From positions 52,193 through 116,192 of the forward strand of contig CAIVMQ010000051.1 of assembly GCA_903907075.1 (NCBI GenBank): 64,000 nucleotides of DNA, read 5' to 3'. This document shows positions 14,025 to 26,748 of the stretch, in pieces (the first letter of the stretch is position 1; each line of letters begins with the position of its first letter). The stretch comes from an uncultured Bacteroidia bacterium (GTDB taxonomy: Bacteria; Bacteroidota; Bacteroidia; Bacteroidales; Prolixibacteraceae). A program made the position numbers and the translations under genes. The notes under the pieces are model-generated. The model had not been told where the DNA came from. It made no database searches and saw only the letters and a program-made list of their open reading frames with translations.

Positions 14025-15389
14025 TCAGCTTCTTAAGTGGTAAGCCTTGGGCTGAGTAAACACGCGTAAACCCACTTTTGAGAGGGTGCTTCCAAAGCCA
14101 CTATGATTTCTTCCGCTCCATGGAAGTGCTGCACTGACTCTGTCGCAACAGTTCCAATATACCGTCCCTGCATTTAATTGCTGCTGTAATCCTAAAGCCC
14201 GCAGTTCATCGCGACAAAAAACGGCAGCGGTAAGACCATAGTGGGTATCATTCATTAATTCAAGTGCCTGAGCATCATCCTTCACTTTCATGATTCCGAT
14301 GATGGGGCCAAACGACTCTTCCATCATCACCTCCATTGTATGATCTACGTTAACTAATACAGTAGGTTCAAAATAGTTTCCATCCCCTGCAATGGATTTT
14401 CCTCCGCACTGCAGTGTTGCCCCTTTAGATAATGCATCCTTAACCTGTGCCGATAAAAAAGCCGGATGCTCCTTACGTGTTAATGCTCCAATATACGTAT
14501 TTTCCTGCATTGGTGTTCCAATCTGATATGATTTTACCTCAGCAACAAAAGCGGTTACATAGGCATCATAAACCTTCTCATGCACATATATCCGTTCGAC
14601 AGAACAACAGCTTTGGCCGTTATTATAAAATGCACCGTCAGCCGTATTTGCAGCTACCTTGGTAACATCATCGAGATCATCGGTAACATATAACGGATCT
14701 TTACCACCTAGTTCTAGTCCGCAAGGCTTCATCTTTTTACTCACCCGCTCATAGATATATTTTCCTGTTTTATATGATCCGGTGAAGAAATAACCATCCA
14801 GATCGGCGTTTAGCAATATCTCACCAGCCTCTTTTGCCCCAATAACGCACTGAAAAACCGCCTCTGGAACACCCGCCTGATGGAGGTATTTTTGAATCTC
14901 GAGCCCGGTTAATGTTGCCAGTTCAGAAGGTTTATAGAGCACTGCATTTCCTGCCAGTAAGGCCGGGACAAAAACATTCGTTCCTACAAGATACGGGTAG
15001 TTCCAGGCCGAAATATTGCACACAATACCCAACGGTTCGTAAGCAATCTTTTCGCGTGTTGAACCACTCTCAACGACCCACTCTTCAGCAAAGGCAGCAG
15101 CAGCATTGGCTGTCAGCCATTCAATTCGTGCAACAGCACCATTAATCTCATTTTTTGACTGTTGCAATGGCTTACCTACTTCACTGCTTAATATCTCAGC
15201 GGAGTTATTTATATGAGTCTGAAGAAGAGTTCCAAATTTTTGAAGAATTAATATTCGGGAATTAAGTGGCGTTGCAGCCCAACTCTTTTGACCAACTTTG
15301 GCAGTTGCTATTTTAGCATCTATTGTCTGTTGATCATCAGCAATCACCGAGGTGATCACTGCGTTTGTTGCAGGGTTTATTATGTTCAT
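14025..15389 (-). CDS. NAD(P)-dependent aldehyde dehydrogenase
   Basis: GLELGGKDPLYV, NNGQSCCSVERIYV, ESFGPIIGI motifs; ATGA overlap with the preceding hydrolase gene. Confidence 0.92.
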   Translation of the reverse strand: MNIINPATNAVITSVIADDQQTIDAKIATAKVGQKSWAATPLNSRILILQKFGTLLQTHINNSAEILSSEVGKPLQQSKNEINGAVARIEWLTANAAAAFAEEWVVESGSTREKIAYEPLGIVCNISAWNYPYLVGTNVFVPALLAGNAVLYKPSELATLTGLEIQKYLHQAGVPEAVFQCVIGAKEAGEILLNADLDGYFFTGSYKTGKYIYERVSKKMKPCGLELGGKDPLYVTDDLDDVTKVAANTADGAFYNNGQSCCSVERIYVHEKVYDAYVTAFVAEVKSYQIGTPMQENTYIGALTRKEHPAFLSAQVKDALSKGATLQCGGKSIAGDGNYFEPTVLVNVDHTMEVMMEESFGPIIGIMKVKDDAQALELMNDTHYGLTAAVFCRDELRALGLQQQLNAGTVYWNCCDRVSAALPWSGRNHSGFGSTLSKVGLRVFTQPKAYHLRS

Positions 15390-16087
15390 TGTTTAAATTT
15401 TCTTGCTTCCTCAAAGAACCAATTCTTGATATTTTGAGAAAGCGGATTTATCTGTTTATTCTCAATCCGCTCAGGATGCCATTGAACAGCAATCATTGGA
15501 GATCGATCTTTCTTTTCTCTCCACTCGATCCCTTCAACGATTTGGTCATCGGAATAACAATTCACAATTAGCGATTCCGCGAGGCGATCTATGGCCTGGT
15601 GATGAGCGCTATTGGCAAGGCCGCTGTCTACACCACAGATAGTGTGTAGCAAAGAGGTATGTTCTAAAATTACCGGATGGATGTAATCGACACCATTCAT
15701 ATTTCGATGATTTTTCTCCCCTGCGGCCTCGAGGTCTGCAATAAGCGTACCACCTAAAGCAATATTTATAAGTTGAAGACCGCGGCAAATCCCTACCACA
15801 GGCATCCTTAGAGTTTGAGCCATTTCAAACAGATCAAGCTCAAAGCGGTCTCTGATTCTGTTCCATTCTTTGGGCTGATTTGGATACCTTTTTAATCCCG
15901 CGTCAAAAAAGAAAGGGTCAATATCTACCCCACCGGTAAGAAGTATTACATGACACCGTTTCAAATCATCGAGGTTTTGCTTCTCCCAAAAGAGTTCAAT
16001 GAACTCAACATCCGTAGAGCCCTCCAATATCCATGCAGGAAAATTGGGATACTTTGTTTCAGAGAAGCAGATACCGATTGTTATCAT
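15386..16087 (-). CDS. gamma-glutamyl-gamma-aminobutyrate hydrolase family (peptidase C26, PuuD-like)
   Basis: LLTGGVDIDPFFF, MPVVGICRGLQLINIALGGTL, VNSAHHQ-type (ANSAHHQAID), AVQWHPE motifs. Confidence 0.9.
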   Translation of the reverse strand: MITIGICFSETKYPNFPAWILEGSTDVEFIELFWEKQNLDDLKRCHVILLTGGVDIDPFFFDAGLKRYPNQPKEWNRIRDRFELDLFEMAQTLRMPVVGICRGLQLINIALGGTLIADLEAAGEKNHRNMNGVDYIHPVILEHTSLLHTICGVDSGLANSAHHQAIDRLAESLIVNCYSDDQIVEGIEWREKKDRSPMIAVQWHPERIENKQINPLSQNIKNWFFEEARKFKQ

Positions 16088-16099
16088 AGTCGTAAAATA

Positions 16100-17239
16100 T
16101 TACAACGCCTTAGTATATAATAATTTAAAATCTTCGCGACTAACCGGCTTAGGGTTATTAGGATGAGCAAAATCAGCAAATGCGAGGTCTGCCAAAATTT
16201 CAATATGCGCTTCTTTTACACCTATACCACTAAGAGTTTTAGGAATTCCGAGTCTATCATTAAGGTCAAAAAGATATTCGATAACCCCCTCACCTGTTTC
16301 ATTTTTAACCCCGAGGGCCTTAGCCATGCGGACAAACCGATGTTCAAATCCGGCAAGATTAAATTGCATTCCATACGGAAGGTTTACCGCATTTGCCAAT
16401 CCATGATGGGTATCGAGGAGACTAGACAGGGGATGAGCTAAAGAGTGAACCACGCCCAGCCCTTTTTGAAAGGCTATCGCACCCATCATCGAGGCAAGCA
16501 ACATATTAGAGCGAGATTCGACATCGGGATTTTTAACCGCAGTTTCGATCGACTGTGCAATTAGGCGCATCCCTTCGAGGGCTATACCGTCGCAAAGTGG
16601 ATGGTAATTTTTTGCCAGGAAAGCTTCCATATTGTGCGTTAGCGCATCCATACCTGTGGCAGCCGTGATAAAAGAGGGAAGATCCATCGTCAACATCGGG
16701 TCGGCAAAGACTATCTTAGCCAATAATTTAGGGGAGAAGAGTATTTTCTTCTGATGGGTTTCATCATCTGCGATAATGGCCGAGCGGCCTACCTCAGATC
16801 CTGTTCCTGCCGTTGTAGGAATAGTGATAAAGTGAGGCACATCATTGGTGACGTAGACATCCCCACCGATTAGATCGTCGTATTTAAAAAGGTCTTCGCG
16901 GTGGTTAATCCGTAATAAGATCGCACGTGCCACATCAATTGCAGCACCTCCGCCAATACCGATGATACAATCGCATTGAGCGTTATCATAAGCGTCGCTC
17001 CCTTTATAAACATCACTCTTGACCGGATTTTTATGGATGTCGTGAAATACCGTCACCCGAAACCCCTGTGAAGTTAAGTCGGCCACAATCTGTTTAAAGA
17101 AATCTAGGCCTGCAATCGTGGGATCTGTAGAGATCAGCGGCTTTTTTAGCTGATTACTCTCTAGATAGGCTGGTAATTCAGCGATTACCCCCGCTCCAAA
17201 ACGGATGGTAGTGGGGAAATTAAATTGTGAAATTGACAT
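16100..17239 (-). CDS. iron-containing alcohol dehydrogenase
   Basis: GIGGGAAIDVARA, IPTTAGTGSEVGRSAI, GVVHSLAHPLSSLLDTHHGLANAVNLPYGM. Confidence 0.93.
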   Translation of the reverse strand: MSISQFNFPTTIRFGAGVIAELPAYLESNQLKKPLISTDPTIAGLDFFKQIVADLTSQGFRVTVFHDIHKNPVKSDVYKGSDAYDNAQCDCIIGIGGGAAIDVARAILLRINHREDLFKYDDLIGGDVYVTNDVPHFITIPTTAGTGSEVGRSAIIADDETHQKKILFSPKLLAKIVFADPMLTMDLPSFITAATGMDALTHNMEAFLAKNYHPLCDGIALEGMRLIAQSIETAVKNPDVESRSNMLLASMMGAIAFQKGLGVVHSLAHPLSSLLDTHHGLANAVNLPYGMQFNLAGFEHRFVRMAKALGVKNETGEGVIEYLFDLNDRLGIPKTLSGIGVKEAHIEILADLAFADFAHPNNPKPVSREDFKLLYTKAL

Positions 17240-17423
17240 GATGAAAGAGGATTTCTTGTTATTCTATTCTTGATATATTAACCAAAATTATTTTAAAAAG
17301 GGCTTAAAAAGAGGTAAGGTTCAAGAAAATCAAAATGGCCCCCCTTCGGAGTACTAATTTTATCTTTCCCATTTTCCCTCATTCTCACAGGAGGTTATTC
17401 AAATTAAAGTCCTTCGGACATGA

Positions 17424-18773
17424 TCAAATAATCTCGAAGTACCGTTTTGTTTCCCAGTCGGTAACTACTTTGGCAAACTGACGCACTTCCCAGTCGCGGG
17501 TTTGGGTAAAATGGGTTACAAAGGTCTCCCCGAATAACTCTTTTGCAACAGCCGAATTTTTCATTGCGTGATTGGCTTCATCGAGACTCTTGGGAAAGCG
17601 GCCATTGCGTTCATCGCGGTAGCCGTTGCCAGTAGTTTCATCCTGTAATTTCAGCCGATGTTTAATCCCGTAAAGACCCGAAGCCAGGCAAGCACTTAGT
17701 GCGAGATATGGATTGGTATCACTTCCGACCACACGAGTCTCGAGGCGACACGACTTGTTGCCACCTGTAATTGCGCGCAGCGCGACGGTACGATTATCGT
17801 TTCCCCAGGTCACTGTCGTTGGAGCCCAGGCTCCTTCAACAAGTCGTTTATATGAATTTATCGTTGGTGCAACCATTGGCAGGATATGGGGCAGGCAATA
17901 AAGCTGACCGGCAAGATAATGTTCCATGGTCTCACTCATCTGATGCTTTCCGGAAGGATCGTGAAAAACATTCGTCTTCTCTTTCCAGAGTGATTGGTGC
18001 ACATGACCGCTACAGCCGGGCAGATTTTCGTTAAACTTGGCCATAAAGCTGGCAAGAATTCCATGTTGATAGGCGATCTCTTTAACTGCAGTCTTAAACA
18101 GGGTAGCGTTATCGGCCGCCAAAAGGGCATCGCTATAGGTTATGGCCGCCTCGTAAACTCCTGGACCTGTTTCGGTGTGCAGCCCTTCGAGGGGAATATC
18201 AAAATCTTTAAGTTGATCAAAAAGGGCAGAGAAGAAATCGTTACGGGCGCTACTTCGCAATATCGAATAGCCAAACATCCCCGGTGTTAAAGGGGTGAGA
18301 TTACGACCCTCTTTTGCAGCAAAAGATTGCGGTGTCTCTTCAAAGTTAAACCACTCAAATTCCTGAGAACATTTTGCATGATAACCAGCATCGGTAGCTT
18401 GTCGAATTATTTTCTGAAGCAATTGACGTGGGCATATTGCCAGTGGATTACCCGCACCATCGATAAATTCACCGAGGAAAAAAGGGATTCCGTTTTCCCA
18501 AGGTATCTTCCGAAAGCTACTCATGCTGAGTTGAACTTTGGCATCAGGATAGCCAGTATGCCAACCGGTATAACTGGTATTATCATAAGCCAGGTCGTTC
18601 ATATCCCAGCCAAAGATTACATCGCAAAACCCCAGGTTACTAGTAGTGCTCGAGAGGAATTTCTCAACAGAAATATATTTCCCTCTCAGTACGCCATCGA
18701 TATCGGCAACAGCCACTTTAACCCTTCCAGAAGGGTGACTGCTTACATAGGCAATAATCTCTTCGTTATTCAT
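17424..18773 (-). CDS. glutamine synthetase family protein (gamma-glutamylamine ligase-like, PuuA/GlnA4 type)
   Basis: GLHTETGPGVYEAAI, PGCSGHVHQSLW, WGNDNRTVALRAITG...RLETRVVGSDTNPYLALSA. Confidence 0.9.
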   Translation of the reverse strand: MNNEEIIAYVSSHPSGRVKVAVADIDGVLRGKYISVEKFLSSTTSNLGFCDVIFGWDMNDLAYDNTSYTGWHTGYPDAKVQLSMSSFRKIPWENGIPFFLGEFIDGAGNPLAICPRQLLQKIIRQATDAGYHAKCSQEFEWFNFEETPQSFAAKEGRNLTPLTPGMFGYSILRSSARNDFFSALFDQLKDFDIPLEGLHTETGPGVYEAAITYSDALLAADNATLFKTAVKEIAYQHGILASFMAKFNENLPGCSGHVHQSLWKEKTNVFHDPSGKHQMSETMEHYLAGQLYCLPHILPMVAPTINSYKRLVEGAWAPTTVTWGNDNRTVALRAITGGNKSCRLETRVVGSDTNPYLALSACLASGLYGIKHRLKLQDETTGNGYRDERNGRFPKSLDEANHAMKNSAVAKELFGETFVTHFTQTRDWEVRQFAKVVTDWETKRYFEII

Positions 18774-18833
18774 CTATGAATTATTTAATTTAATTCCTGC
18801 AAACAGCAGGATAAAAATCCGCAAGAATCTAAT

Positions 18834-20168
18834 TTACTGTAGATTACTATGTTTAGGATCGTGTTTATGTTCCTTCTTAAGTACTTTAAACAGGATAAAG
18901 AAGAAGAGTAAGATTCCAAAATAATAAAGTGCTAACAGTCCGTTTTCATAACATAAAGCAAGAATACAAATTACAGATAAGACTAAGGCAACAATTGGTG
19001 TAAACGGATAAAAAGGGACTACAAACGGGCGTGGCAGCTCAGGAGCGGATCGGCGCAGTTTAATTAGCGAGAGCATTGAAAATGCATATATTGTGAGTGC
19101 TCCAAATACCGAGATAATGATGATCTCGGCGGTTTTCCCGGTGCAGAGTATGATTATTCCGATAAAACAATTAAAGACAAGAGCGTTAGCGGGAGTCTGA
19201 AAGCCTGAATGGATAACACCCAAGAAACGCGGAGCATTGCCTATTTTTGCGAATTCATAGGTTGCCCGTCCACTTGCCAAAAATAATCCGTGGAAAGAAG
19301 CTATAAGCCCAAATAATCCTATGCCGATAAGCAATTTATAAAATAAATGATCGGAAGCAAAGACATGACCCAGAGCAAGAGGTAAAGGGGAGTCAGAACT
19401 ACTTCCATCGGCTGCATATACGATGAATTCCCATCCTCCGACACCTATAGCAGCCACAAACACAAGCAGACATAATATAACCAGTGTAATCAAAGCCCAT
19501 CTAAAGCCTTTAATAATATCTTTTTGCGGATTAATAGTCTCTTCTGCGACATTTGCCACCCCTTCAATACCTAGAAACATCCATATTGCGAAAGGAATAG
19601 CAGCAAAAGCACCGCTCCAGCCATGAGGAAATGGGTTTTCGGTAAAATGAGAAGCCGAGAAATGGGGCAAGGTAAGACTAGAGAAAAGAATCAGCTCACC
19701 AACGGCCAAGACAGTTACGAATAGTTCAAAATTGGCAGCTGCATTTATCCCGTAAATATTTAGTGCAGTGAAAAAAACGTAAATCACGATTGCAGATGCT
19801 AAGATTGGAATTTCAGGAAAAGCAAGGTGAAAATAAGCACCAACTGCCATTGCAATAGCTGGAGGAGCAAAAACAAACTCGATAATTTGTGCCAAACCTG
19901 TAATAAATCCCACATCCTTTTTAAAAGCACGTTCGGCATAATCATAGGCACCACCTGCTTTAGGTATTGCACAAGCCAATTCGGCATAGGAGAAGGTAAA
20001 GCAAGAATAGAGAATTATTACCAATACGGTGGCTAGCGCCATACCCAGCGTTCCCCCTTTCTCGAGCCCCAGATTCCAACCAAAATACATTCCTGAAATT
20101 ACATATCCTACTCCTAGACCCCATAATAATAAGGGGGTTAACGTTCTTTTAAGTGTGCCGTGTCTCAT
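18834..20168 (-). CDS. APC-family amino acid/amine permease, resembles ethanolamine permease
   Basis: 12-TM-type ORF; LLLWGLGVGYVISGMYFGWNLGLEKGGTLGMALATVL...AELACAIPKAGGAYDYAERAF...AQIIEFVFAPPAIAMAVGAYF. Confidence 0.82.
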   Translation of the reverse strand: MRHGTLKRTLTPLLLWGLGVGYVISGMYFGWNLGLEKGGTLGMALATVLVIILYSCFTFSYAELACAIPKAGGAYDYAERAFKKDVGFITGLAQIIEFVFAPPAIAMAVGAYFHLAFPEIPILASAIVIYVFFTALNIYGINAAANFELFVTVLAVGELILFSSLTLPHFSASHFTENPFPHGWSGAFAAIPFAIWMFLGIEGVANVAEETINPQKDIIKGFRWALITLVILCLLVFVAAIGVGGWEFIVYAADGSSSDSPLPLALGHVFASDHLFYKLLIGIGLFGLIASFHGLFLASGRATYEFAKIGNAPRFLGVIHSGFQTPANALVFNCFIGIIILCTGKTAEIIIISVFGALTIYAFSMLSLIKLRRSAPELPRPFVVPFYPFTPIVALVLSVICILALCYENGLLALYYFGILLFFFILFKVLKKEHKHDPKHSNLQ

Positions 20169-22542: not shown

Positions 22543-25230
22543 CTAATCTTCTTTTTCTTCGTGTTCATGGCCACTAAATTTTTTAGGATAGGACTCCTTC
22601 CCTTTCATTGCAAACCAGAGAATGCGGTTCATAAGATTGTCATCTCCAGCATCGATATGGTCAAATTGAGGCTCGAGGCTCTTACGTGCAAAATGGAGTG
22701 CCGCCCCTTTTAATTCGGCCAGACTCTTATTCATTTCATTCAATGGAATCTGATTCGCCACAGCATTAAATGGTGTGAAGTCGGGTGAAAAAGAGAAGCA
22801 ATCGAACATTGGCATTGCCGTTGCATCGCTGATATTCATAGGTGGTAATCCAAGGATCTGCTCTACGGTGCGAACCATAGAGACTTGATTATAATTTGTC
22901 CGGACTGTTTTCTTCAATCTGGAGTAAGGACTAACCACTGTACCTACCGTTCGGTAAGCCGACACATGATCCCAACCCGCTTGTGAATCATCTTCAGCCA
23001 TTAGAATAATGGTATTTTTCCAGAAACGGCTTTTCGAGATCGCCTCAACAATCTGACCATAGGCAAGATCATTATCAGCAACCATAGCGCGTGGGGTTGG
23101 GATTCCGGGACGGGTACCCGCAGTGTGATCATTTGAAAGGGCAACAACCATAAGTTCAGGCCATTGATCACCATCCAATTTATCATATGCGTTCATCTCG
23201 GCTATAAAGACCTTAGCTCTTTGAACGTCAGTAATCAAGTGGGTATCCGATCCGGGAAAATTCTGACTTAGGATCTTTTCGACCGTTTTTATGGTCGTGG
23301 TATTCTTAAAGTTTAGCGGTTCTCCCTTTTGGAATCGTTCATAAACAGAACTCCAGGTAATATTCTTATCGAGTTCAACATCGCAAGCTTCCCCATAAAT
23401 CCGAACACTCTTGCCATGTCTCAAGGCATTATCCCAGATAAAGCCGGTTGAGGGATATACTAATGCATCTCGCTGCACATGGGGATAACTTCTGATCCAT
23501 GCCCGTACATTTTTCTCGACATAATCGGTTACAATACCCATATCAGCCCATTGATGACCCTCGGCCGAACATTTTCCGGAGACATAAAAGTTATCCATCA
23601 ACAAGAAATCGGAAACTAATTTATGCGTATTTGGTGTAACAGTATTGCCAAAGGTACAAAGCGTAGAGTCGCCATCTCCTGTTTTAAGATCTCCCAGAAC
23701 CTGGTCATAGGTTCTATTTTCTTTAATTATATAGACTACATGTTTAAATACCGAAGGTTCTCCAATGCGCACCGGAACTGGCACAGGAGCGATATTCTTA
23801 CGGGGTAACTTATTTGTTAAAGCCAGCCTAGAAAATTGGTTTGCCTTCTCAACCTTAGCGGTATTTTTAAGCAACTGAGGCTGGTCAGGGACAGGGATTA
23901 CCGATACAGAAGCCATCATATGATGCGCATTATAGGAACTCTTACCCGTTATCTCAGAGATATCTGGGGTTCTTGCTCCTTCCGCTTCTATATTGGCAAC
24001 AAAGAGCAGGCTATCATGATAAATAGCCACACCTCCCGGATAGGCTCCTGTGGGGATAAAACCGGAGATTTTACTTTTATTCCCTTCTTTAGCCCCTTTG
24101 GAAGGATCAGCAAGAGAAACTACCGCAAGGGCATTGTCCATGCCGTTTGCAACGTAGAGCGTTTTCCCATCTGTTGTGATCCCTAAACCATTAGGAGAAT
24201 CCCCCCAATAATTATTTGTCGCACCAGAGAGGCGCACTGAAATCTCTTCTGATACCTGATCATTTTCGACATTAATGACCGATATTTTATCACTATTGGC
24301 ATTGGCAACATAGACAAATTTTTGCGCGGGATCAGCGAGGATATCATTAGGGTGCAGACCTACAACGATCTCCTTGAGAAGTTTTCCTGATTTGGCGTCC
24401 AATACAGACACTGTCCCTTCGCGTGTAGCACCGGTCTGGGGATCAACTTTTGCACTTCCCCATGGAACACCCGCAACATCAGGATCGTGCGCATCAGGAA
24501 CAGATCCGGCCCAATTGGAGACATAGAGTTTGCCATCAGCAGAGGTTATTCCAAAAGGAGCTACTCCAACCGGTACAGACCAAATAGTTCTTCCCGATTG
24601 GACATCTAATTTCTCAACGCTATTATTCCCATTTAAGACTACATAAATCACAGGAATACCGAGTTCAACGGCCACGATAATTTCATTTGGCAAAGCAGTC
24701 TCTGCGGGCTTAACAGGTTCAAATCCGAAAGTCTTAATAACCGAAAGTTTCTCTCCGTTCCACCTAGCCTGAACAACAAATGATTTGTCATTTTTCCCCA
24801 CCGCGCTCCAAAACAACTGGTAATCACTTCCTGATTTAAGCCACGAGATTCCCGAATAGGTATTCTGCAACCCCTCTTTTGTAAAATGACTCCTGAGGGG
24901 AAAGCGGGCTATAATTTTCTTGCTCTTCGGATCTATAATCACAACTGAATAACGTCCTTCCACAGCAATCCATTTTCCATCGGGAGAAGCTGAGCAGTCC
25001 AAGGCATGGTTCTCATCATCCTTATCTCCGAAATAAAGCTGTTCCCCTTCGGGATCAATCCAGCGGTTATAAGGCATCATGACCGGCAGCGTGTTACCTG
25101 CTAGGGTATTCTTCTCATATGAGGTGAGGTATTTCTTTTGTTGCCTGATATTCTTTCCCTGTTGTGCCGCTAATGGCAGAATTATAGAAAGGGTTAGAAT
25201 TCCGAATAGTTGAAGCCTAATGTTTTGCAT
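22543..25230 (-). CDS. bifunctional YVTN beta-propeller / phosphoesterase-family (alkaline phosphatase superfamily) protein
   Basis: Signal peptide; propeller repeats (FVYVANANSDKISVINVEND, TLYVANGMDNALAVVSL); C-terminal VVYIIKENRTYDQVLGDLKTGDGDS, AEGHQWADMGIVTDY, MAEDDSQAGWDHV. Confidence 0.85.
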   Translation of the reverse strand: MQNIRLQLFGILTLSIILPLAAQQGKNIRQQKKYLTSYEKNTLAGNTLPVMMPYNRWIDPEGEQLYFGDKDDENHALDCSASPDGKWIAVEGRYSVVIIDPKSKKIIARFPLRSHFTKEGLQNTYSGISWLKSGSDYQLFWSAVGKNDKSFVVQARWNGEKLSVIKTFGFEPVKPAETALPNEIIVAVELGIPVIYVVLNGNNSVEKLDVQSGRTIWSVPVGVAPFGITSADGKLYVSNWAGSVPDAHDPDVAGVPWGSAKVDPQTGATREGTVSVLDAKSGKLLKEIVVGLHPNDILADPAQKFVYVANANSDKISVINVENDQVSEEISVRLSGATNNYWGDSPNGLGITTDGKTLYVANGMDNALAVVSLADPSKGAKEGNKSKISGFIPTGAYPGGVAIYHDSLLFVANIEAEGARTPDISEITGKSSYNAHHMMASVSVIPVPDQPQLLKNTAKVEKANQFSRLALTNKLPRKNIAPVPVPVRIGEPSVFKHVVYIIKENRTYDQVLGDLKTGDGDSTLCTFGNTVTPNTHKLVSDFLLMDNFYVSGKCSAEGHQWADMGIVTDYVEKNVRAWIRSYPHVQRDALVYPSTGFIWDNALRHGKSVRIYGEACDVELDKNITWSSVYERFQKGEPLNFKNTTTIKTVEKILSQNFPGSDTHLITDVQRAKVFIAEMNAYDKLDGDQWPELMVVALSNDHTAGTRPGIPTPRAMVADNDLAYGQIVEAISKSRFWKNTIILMAEDDSQAGWDHVSAYRTVGTVVSPYSRLKKTVRTNYNQVSMVRTVEQILGLPPMNISDATAMPMFDCFSFSPDFTPFNAVANQIPLNEMNKSLAELKGAALHFARKSLEPQFDHIDAGDDNLMNRILWFAMKGKESYPKKFSGHEHEEKED

Positions 25231-25233
25231 TGA

Positions 25234-26748
25234 TTATTTTTTAGCCGCTTTTTCTGCTACCATCGTTATAACCGCATTATCACTCCATTCGGCACAGTGA
25301 CCCGCCATTGGGGTGAAAGAGATTTTTGCATCCGATTTTGGATTTTCAGTTTTGTCGAGATACATCTTCAGAAACCGTGTAGCCACATTCGAAAAAAGAC
25401 CATCCATATCGCCGGTCCAGATCCATATCTTCCCCTGCAGTTTAGGCCCTAGTGCAGACCAATTTTTCTGAAGTATCTTTTTGAGATCATACTTCTCCCA
25501 TTGTTCCGCTACCTTATGGTCGATTTTCCCGGTTATCGGATCAATCATCAACGAAGGGAGTCCATCCATACCTTTGGGTCCAAAAACAGCATTATAGGCT
25601 CCAAATTGTTCTCCTGAAATTAGGTAATTATTGGTCCTACTAAGCACATTCTCATCATGGATAGCCACCTCCATCGACCCTTTAGGTTCACCAAGTATTG
25701 AACGTGATTCGGGTTGAAGATATCCAAACCGGTTGATAAAAGCGCTTTCATCACTGTAAATATTAATAAGGCCATAATGCTCAAAATCAACAGGATCAGG
25801 GCTATAAGCCCATGCGCCATTGAAAAAATCGGGATAGAGAATCTGTAGCCCTAGCACTACCCATCCTCCGGTAGATGCTCCTGCCAAGAACCGCATTCCT
25901 GAATCTTTCTGATAGTGCACTAGTTTTTCAATTTCGGGTATCAGCTCTTCAGTAAGTGCTTTTCCACATGGGCCATTATTTTCGGAATCCACTTGATAAG
26001 AGTCTCCATAAGGACCTTGAGAATCAAGAAAGACATAGATTACCTGCGGGGCACTTCCTGAGAACCACCAGTCGGTAAATGTTGAATTCTTCATCATCCC
26101 ATTAACCCCATCATAGCGGCCATTTAAACCAGGTGCGCGATAACAAATCGGAAATGACTTATCCGGATTTTCAAAATAACTACTCGGTAGCAATAACGAA
26201 GCTTTTAAGTAGCGTGGGCGGCCCCAGAAATCAGAAAGCACCTTACTCTGAATAATCACCTTTTTTACATATTTATGCTCCACAATTTCATAAGGAGGGA
26301 TGATGGTATTGAGATTCAGTGAGAGGTTTAGAGCACCCGCAACAGTAACAGAATCTATATTACTATACATATTCCCGGGAACATTCGCTTGTCCGTCATC
26401 GATATTTTGTTTATAAACAGCCTGAAAATAGTATTTCTTAGGCAAAGGGATAAATCCTTCGGCCAGATCGGTATGAAGGATCCTTTTATCGCCTGAGTCG
26501 ACAAGATACGTAGAAGAGCCATCCCAGTTCTGTGGTGTAATTCCAACTGTTACATCTGCATTTCTACGCGGTTCTTTTCCACTCTGAGTCGTAAAATAGA
26601 GCAGCATACGCCCCCCCTTTACAAATGAAGATCTCATCTGCGGAGATAGCGAGATTTTAATTTTTTGAAATGGCAATTCCTCCGCAGATACCAGCACCGA
26701 AGATGCCACAAAAGAGAGGATTAATAATGTCTTGATTAGTTTACTCAT
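25234..26748 (-). CDS. secreted alpha/beta-hydrolase, esterase D-like
   Basis: Signal peptide; VIYVFLDSQGPYGDSYQ, FLAGASTGGWVVLGLQILYPDFFNGAWAYSPDPVD (nucleophile elbow GASTGG), AGHCAEW. Confidence 0.75.
   Translation of the reverse strand: MSKLIKTLLILSFVASSVLVSAEELPFQKIKISLSPQMRSSFVKGGRMLLYFTTQSGKEPRRNADVTVGITPQNWDGSSTYLVDSGDKRILHTDLAEGFIPLPKKYYFQAVYKQNIDDGQANVPGNMYSNIDSVTVAGALNLSLNLNTIIPPYEIVEHKYVKKVIIQSKVLSDFWGRPRYLKASLLLPSSYFENPDKSFPICYRAPGLNGRYDGVNGMMKNSTFTDWWFSGSAPQVIYVFLDSQGPYGDSYQVDSENNGPCGKALTEELIPEIEKLVHYQKDSGMRFLAGASTGGWVVLGLQILYPDFFNGAWAYSPDPVDFEHYGLINIYSDESAFINRFGYLQPESRSILGEPKGSMEVAIHDENVLSRTNNYLISGEQFGAYNAVFGPKGMDGLPSLMIDPITGKIDHKVAEQWEKYDLKKILQKNWSALGPKLQGKIWIWTGDMDGLFSNVATRFLKMYLDKTENPKSDAKISFTPMAGHCAEWSDNAVITMVAEKAAKK

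Follow-up and report, generated by a model that had tools for sequence, protein, structure and literature searches.

Ethanolamine catabolism with gamma-glutamylated intermediates is known from Chromohalobacter salexigens and Phaeobacter sp. MED193. This system consists of a TRAP transporter (EtoVWX), an ethanolamine gamma-glutamylase, an aldehyde dehydrogenase (ALDH), an Fe-dependent dehydrogenase and a hydrolase of the formylglutamate amidohydrolase family. The ethanolamine pathway of C. salexigens is represented by PF00120, PF00465, PF00171 and PF05013 proteins (PMC9397018, Table 2). In Phaeobacter sp. MED193, phosphoethanolamine induces the cluster proteins, and the Kd of EtoX for ethanolamine is 7.9 µM (PMC10132767). 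The GlnA4 cluster of Streptomyces coelicolor (SCO1610-1615) encodes a gamma-glutamylethanolamide synthetase, an ALDH, a glutamine-amidotransferase-type hydrolase, a short-chain dehydrogenase and the regulator EpuRI, and clusters of this type contain an ethanolamine/amino-acid permease in some species (PMC6529630).

The DNA analysed here (the window) is a stretch of 64,000 nucleotides from an uncultured member of the Bacteroidota. Positions 14025-20168 of the window contain, all on the minus strand, five intact and uninterrupted open reading frames according to the ORF list and profile matches. Their order is that given in the original prediction: permease, glutamine synthetase (GS)-like ligase, iron-containing alcohol dehydrogenase (Fe-ADH), peptidase C26 hydrolase and ALDH. 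With a probability of roughly 0.8, these genes encode B12-independent, microcompartment-free ethanolamine catabolism via gamma-glutamylation. The permease would import ethanolamine, and the ligase would join its amine to the gamma-carboxyl group of glutamate in an ATP-dependent manner to give gamma-glutamylethanolamide. The Fe-ADH would then oxidize the alcohol group of this amide-protected compound to an aldehyde, and the ALDH would convert this aldehyde to gamma-glutamylglycine, from which the C26 hydrolase would release glycine, regenerating glutamate. The substrate, each of these reactions and their order are deduced from sequence and genome context. There is good support for an amino-alcohol substrate. 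Ethanolamine is the best candidate, because two independent modules agree: the Eat-type permease, whose family is found at eutBC loci, and the dehydrogenases, whose relatives are found in TRAP-GS-ALDH-FeADH clusters. The originally proposed route from ethanolamine to glutamate and glycine is thus supported by independent genome-context evidence.

The intergenic gaps are 60, 184 and 12 bp in the order of transcription, followed by a 4-bp overlap. The overlap, between the stop of the C26 gene and the start of the ALDH gene, reads ATGA at 15386..15389 on the minus strand, as predicted. The 184-bp gap between the GS and Fe-ADH genes (17240..17423) lies at a junction that is wider or split in relatives, and possibly separates a unit for uptake and ligation from one for oxidation. 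The block would accordingly be transcribed as one or two units. Promoter and terminator scans give no more matches than shuffled sequence, and an Rfam search gives no RNA element. Upstream of the block, a large beta-propeller/phosphoesterase protein with a weak PF04185 match and a putative esterase are encoded at 22543-26748 on the minus strand. This order is kept in three congeners (L041, L042 and L047), but not in the others. A role of the phosphoesterase (22543-25230) in supplying ethanolamine is not claimed, because the PF04185 match is weak and the gene order is patchy.

The permease (18834..20168, minus strand; 444 aa) is predicted to be an Eat-type APC importer of ethanolamine. It matches the ethanolamine permease model TIGR00908 with 409.8 bits, above the curated cut-off of 381.75, in agreement with the likeness originally noted. 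It is the only one of the five proteins that passes an NCBIfam equivalog cut-off; the ligase, Fe-ADH, C26 hydrolase and ALDH remain below all of them. Its best plasmid relatives are annotated eat (40-44% identity) and adjoin eutBC in three of the four plasmids sampled. Of 12 EutB loci in Bacteroidota, 7 also read eat-eutB-eutC; their Eat, encoded directly upstream, is 42-47% identical to the window permease, indicating that two alternative modules for ethanolamine use transporters of one family. These results suggest, at the level of the family, that an ethanolamine uptake gene belongs to the block.

The ligase (17424..18773, minus strand; 449 aa), a predicted gamma-glutamylethanolamide synthetase, matches PF00120 with 324.8 bits. 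It remains below every cut-off of the NCBIfam GS and PuuA models. The best of these is GlnA, with 218.7 bits, and the score for the gamma-glutamylputrescine synthetase model (GGputSyn) is 194.6 bits. Active-site residues were read from an alignment to E. coli GlnA and are given in Salmonella numbering. Of the residues that bind glutamate and metal, those checked (E129, E131, E212, E220, H269, R321, R339, E357 and R359) are conserved in the ligase, but it has Trp for Glu327, Pro for Asn264 and Phe for Tyr179. Glu327 is part of the ammonia site of GS. At its position, Trp is found in the window ligase, in all its close relatives and in IpuC, Phe in 5dm3 and the Roseobacter and Paracoccus enzymes, and Tyr in PuuA. 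This residue pattern suggests a gamma-glutamyl ligase for an organic amine, without specifying which one. It is very improbable that the protein is an ordinary glutamine synthetase and that the adjoining dehydrogenases act on an unrelated alcohol. The PF00120 family and the top NCBIfam score to GlnA agree with such an assignment, but this score is half of the required 429.15 bits, Glu327 is absent, and an Fe-ADH accompanies this GS subtype even when the two genes are unlinked. In addition, the only other GS of the genome is a separate 733-aa type III enzyme, so that the window ligase is not required for ammonia assimilation. By sequence, the window protein is therefore a GS-like ligase and probably not a glutamine synthetase.

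In a maximum-likelihood phylogeny of 76 GS-like proteins, the window ligase belongs to a clade of Bacteroidota sequences whose sister group consists of proteobacterial enzymes (Legionella lytica, Photobacterium, Burkholderia and Rhizobium), with IpuC next. The TRAP-linked ethanolamine-type ligases (5dm3 and those of Ruegeria, Paracoccus, Marinovum and Qingshengfaniella) form a separate clade with a support of 98.3/100. PDB 5dm3 is taken here to be the Csal_0679 protein of C. salexigens. The placement of PuuA, which has a long branch, is unstable. The window ligase shares 41.6% identity with IpuC, about 35% with enzymes of the Chromohalobacter/Roseobacter type and 29% with PuuA. Its separation from the Chromohalobacter/Roseobacter type in both identity and clade counts against the ethanolamine pathway, as do the neighbours of some sister sequences, which suggest other amines. 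Two alphaproteobacterial relatives (46-48% identity) adjoin an aminotransferase, polyamine-type ABC transporters and a dimethylformamidase-like gene, and other amines are therefore probably used within the wider clade. It is conceivable, although unlikely, that the same chemistry serves another physiological amino alcohol (L-alaninol, serinol or 3-aminopropanol) or a range of them. The ligase is nearer to IpuC, a named gamma-glutamylisopropylamide synthetase, than to the Chromohalobacter/Roseobacter type, and, like IpuC, has Trp and not Phe in place of Glu327. However, the permease belongs to the Eat family, whose Bacteroidota members flank eutBC, the block contains no ipu-type P450 or ferredoxin, and ethanolamine is the abundant amino alcohol in nature.

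Related ligases occur in other arrangements. A plasmid of Legionella lytica, pLlyPCM2298_1, contains GS-ALDH-Fe-ADH-GATase with a window-type ligase (L122:7929-12576); its last gene, despite the annotation 'GMP synthase', probably encodes the gamma-glutamyl hydrolase of the pathway. Photobacterium has a GS-ALDH-FeADH cluster, and these two clusters bridge the window type and the TRAP-linked type. A Rhizobium leguminosarum plasmid (L119:3522-10702) contains a window-type GS, an ALDH and a C26 hydrolase, together with a GMC oxidoreductase that may replace the Fe-ADH at the alcohol oxidation. In an Arthrobacter U41 cluster with a layout similar to the GlnA4 type, the GS is 33.7% identical to the window ligase and belongs to the other clade.

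The three remaining proteins retain their catalytic residues. The Fe-ADH (16100..17239, minus strand; 379 aa; PF00465/PF25137), a predicted gamma-glutamylethanolamide dehydrogenase, has intact metal ligands (D198/H202/H265/H279). The ALDH (14025..15389, minus strand; 454 aa; PF00171, 424.2 bits), a predicted gamma-glutamylacetaldehyde dehydrogenase, retains C261/E226/N130. The C26 hydrolase (15386..16087, minus strand; 233 aa; PF07722, 136.7 bits), a predicted gamma-glutamylglycine hydrolase, retains the nucleophile and the His/Glu motifs (C101/H204/E206). It is distantly related to characterised gamma-glutamyl hydrolases, with 30% identity to PuuD over 136 aa. The Fe-ADH is 38-42% identical over its full length to the enzymes of TRAP-GS-ALDH-Fe-ADH clusters, which provide its top plasmid matches, and five of its six top plasmid relatives adjoin GS and ALDH genes. 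These GS-ALDH-FeADH clusters mostly include TRAP transporter genes and often an N-formylglutamate amidohydrolase gene; those of Roseobacter and Paracoccus are made up of relatives of the window Fe-ADH and ALDH. In the ALDH tree, the window protein groups at 100/100 with the ALDHs of TRAP-GS-ALDH-FeADH clusters, apart from PuuC and the Ipu ALDHs. In the Fe-ADH tree, two Fe-ADHs that lack an adjacent GS gene fall within the group of GS-linked ones, and membership in this tree was therefore dropped as proof of function. The use of an Fe-ADH at the alcohol step, implied by the original prediction to be novel, is not new, because it has been published for C. salexigens (PMC9397018, Table 2). It is probably found in Phaeobacter as well (PMC10132767).

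Genome-wide searches were done with the 3.59-Mb metagenome-assembled genome (133 contigs), which is 92% complete, so that gene absences are provisional. This assembly contains no homologue of EutB and no BMC shell protein; the absence of EutBC and microcompartment genes noted for the vicinity of the block thus extends, for EutB and BMC shell, to the entire assembly. A eutB gene elsewhere in the genome, considered as an explanation of the block, was not found. PF05013 has no match in the assembly either. PuuB has no match in it, an empty result that is weak by itself for a single genome, and the best DAO-family protein is ThiO/MnmC-like. The predicted absence of a PuuB-type FAD oxidase therefore holds across the assembly, in which neither EutB nor PuuB is available to account for the block. 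A Puu-like route for putrescine, with a homologue of alcohol dehydrogenases co-opted for amine oxidation, shares the GS-like, C26 and ALDH families with PuuA, PuuD and PuuC. It is nevertheless highly unlikely. Fe-ADHs act on alcohols and not on amines, PuuB is absent, the ligase is far from PuuA (194.6 bits against a GGputSyn cut-off of 650), the ALDH lies apart from PuuC, and the permease is Eat-type and not PuuP-type. The block is thus rejected as a Puu variant. The original description of a Puu pathway rewired through an Fe-ADH is correct as to the presence of this enzyme, but not as to the origin of the pathway, the ligase and ALDH not being close to PuuA and PuuC.

The five-gene order is found in five fully spanned congener loci and in seven further genomes from a draw of 396 genomes of the phylum. 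In this draw, 44 genomes contain a GS of the window kind, the block genomes being seven of these. At least 46 of 80 named loci have the permease, GS and Fe-ADH genes together, mostly with C26 and ALDH genes. The carriers include Chitinophaga, Pedobacter, Olivibacter, Solitalea, Parapedobacter, Aquirufa, Flavihumibacter and metagenome-assembled genomes. This recurrence in congeners, in the phylum draw and on dozens of Bacteroidota contigs indicates that the block is not due to chance. Nine loci have the GS gene (five with the permease gene) but no linked Fe-ADH gene. An Fe-ADH with 65-82% identity is encoded elsewhere in all nine genomes, in one of them divided between two contig ends. Eight of the distant Fe-ADH loci were examined; three of them contain C26 and ALDH genes and a fourth contains a C26 gene. 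In contrast, an Fe-ADH is found in neither of two genomes with a GS of the triad type described below. The presence of an unlinked Fe-ADH (9/9 versus 0/2) is the strongest in-silico evidence that the ligase and dehydrogenase cooperate.

Genes of the Bacteroidota ligase clade lie either in the five-gene block or in a triad that encodes GS, a 347-aa protein and a phosphatase of the HAD-IIA type (TIGR01460). The triad, found at L102:7455-10722 and about 30 other Bacteroidota loci, has a GS of a sister clade with the same active-site signature. Its 347-aa protein has no Pfam or NCBIfam match and looks kinase-like by eye. EutB is rare in the phylum (12 of the 396 genomes) and is present in none of the seven block genomes; with so few EutB genomes, this says nothing about mutual exclusion of EutB and the block (Fisher p = 1). 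The triad is present in 6 of the 12 EutB-positive genomes, a count that includes one uninspected genome (Fisher p ~1e-4, with kinship ignored).

A search of the open-access literature gave no paper on a Bacteroidota version of the pathway. The chemistry is already known; this version differs in its phylum, in the IpuC-side clade of its ligase, and in having a C26 hydrolase replacing PF05013 and an Eat permease replacing the TRAP transporter. It is tempting to speculate that ethanolamine gamma-glutamylation arose at least twice, with separate recruitments of the Trp-type and the Phe-type clade to pathways with homologous dehydrogenases, and that the sister triad ligases consequently belong to yet another, undescribed pathway for amines, although the odds are somewhat against this. 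If the ethanolamine pathway proposed for the block is correct, B12-independent ethanolamine catabolism extends to a large part of environmental Bacteroidota, in which eutB is rare. It would also suggest how Bacteroidota decomposers recover nitrogen and carbon from phosphatidylethanolamine head groups. It further offers a route to annotating those Bacteroidota 'glutamine synthetase' paralogues that are probably not glutamine synthetases.

The locus resembles the C. salexigens/Phaeobacter system in the clustering of PF00120 ligase, PF00465 dehydrogenase and PF00171 ALDH genes and in the proposed intermediates (PMC9397018, PMC10132767). It differs from this system in having an Eat-type APC permease instead of a TRAP transporter, a C26 hydrolase (PF07722) instead of PF05013, a ligase of a separate clade with Trp and not Phe at the Glu327 position, the gene order GS-FeADH-C26-ALDH, and in its phylum. 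It resembles the GlnA4 cluster, judged by the published gene content of the latter, in the ligase role, the ALDH, the GATase-fold hydrolase and, in some species, the permease. However, the window has an Fe-ADH where Streptomyces has a short-chain dehydrogenase, and EpuRI is a Streptomyces feature. The originally noted likeness to the GlnA4 route is therefore valid for the type of route, but this is the less similar precedent. IpuC is the closest functionally named ligase, and the Ipu pathway also has a C26 hydrolase in its cluster, but the P450, ferredoxin and ferredoxin reductase of Ipu clusters are absent from the block. E. coli Puu shares the gamma-glutamylation logic, the C26 hydrolase and the ALDH, but differs in its PuuB, which is replaced by the Fe-ADH in the window, in its permease and in its distant ligase. 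The short Eat-EutBC pathway shares the permease family and the inferred substrate; in the window, glutamylation takes the place of B12-dependent deamination by EutBC. The window combines an Fe-ADH of the C. salexigens type, a GATase-fold hydrolase as in Streptomyces, an Eat permease of the kind found at eutBC loci and a ligase of a third lineage.
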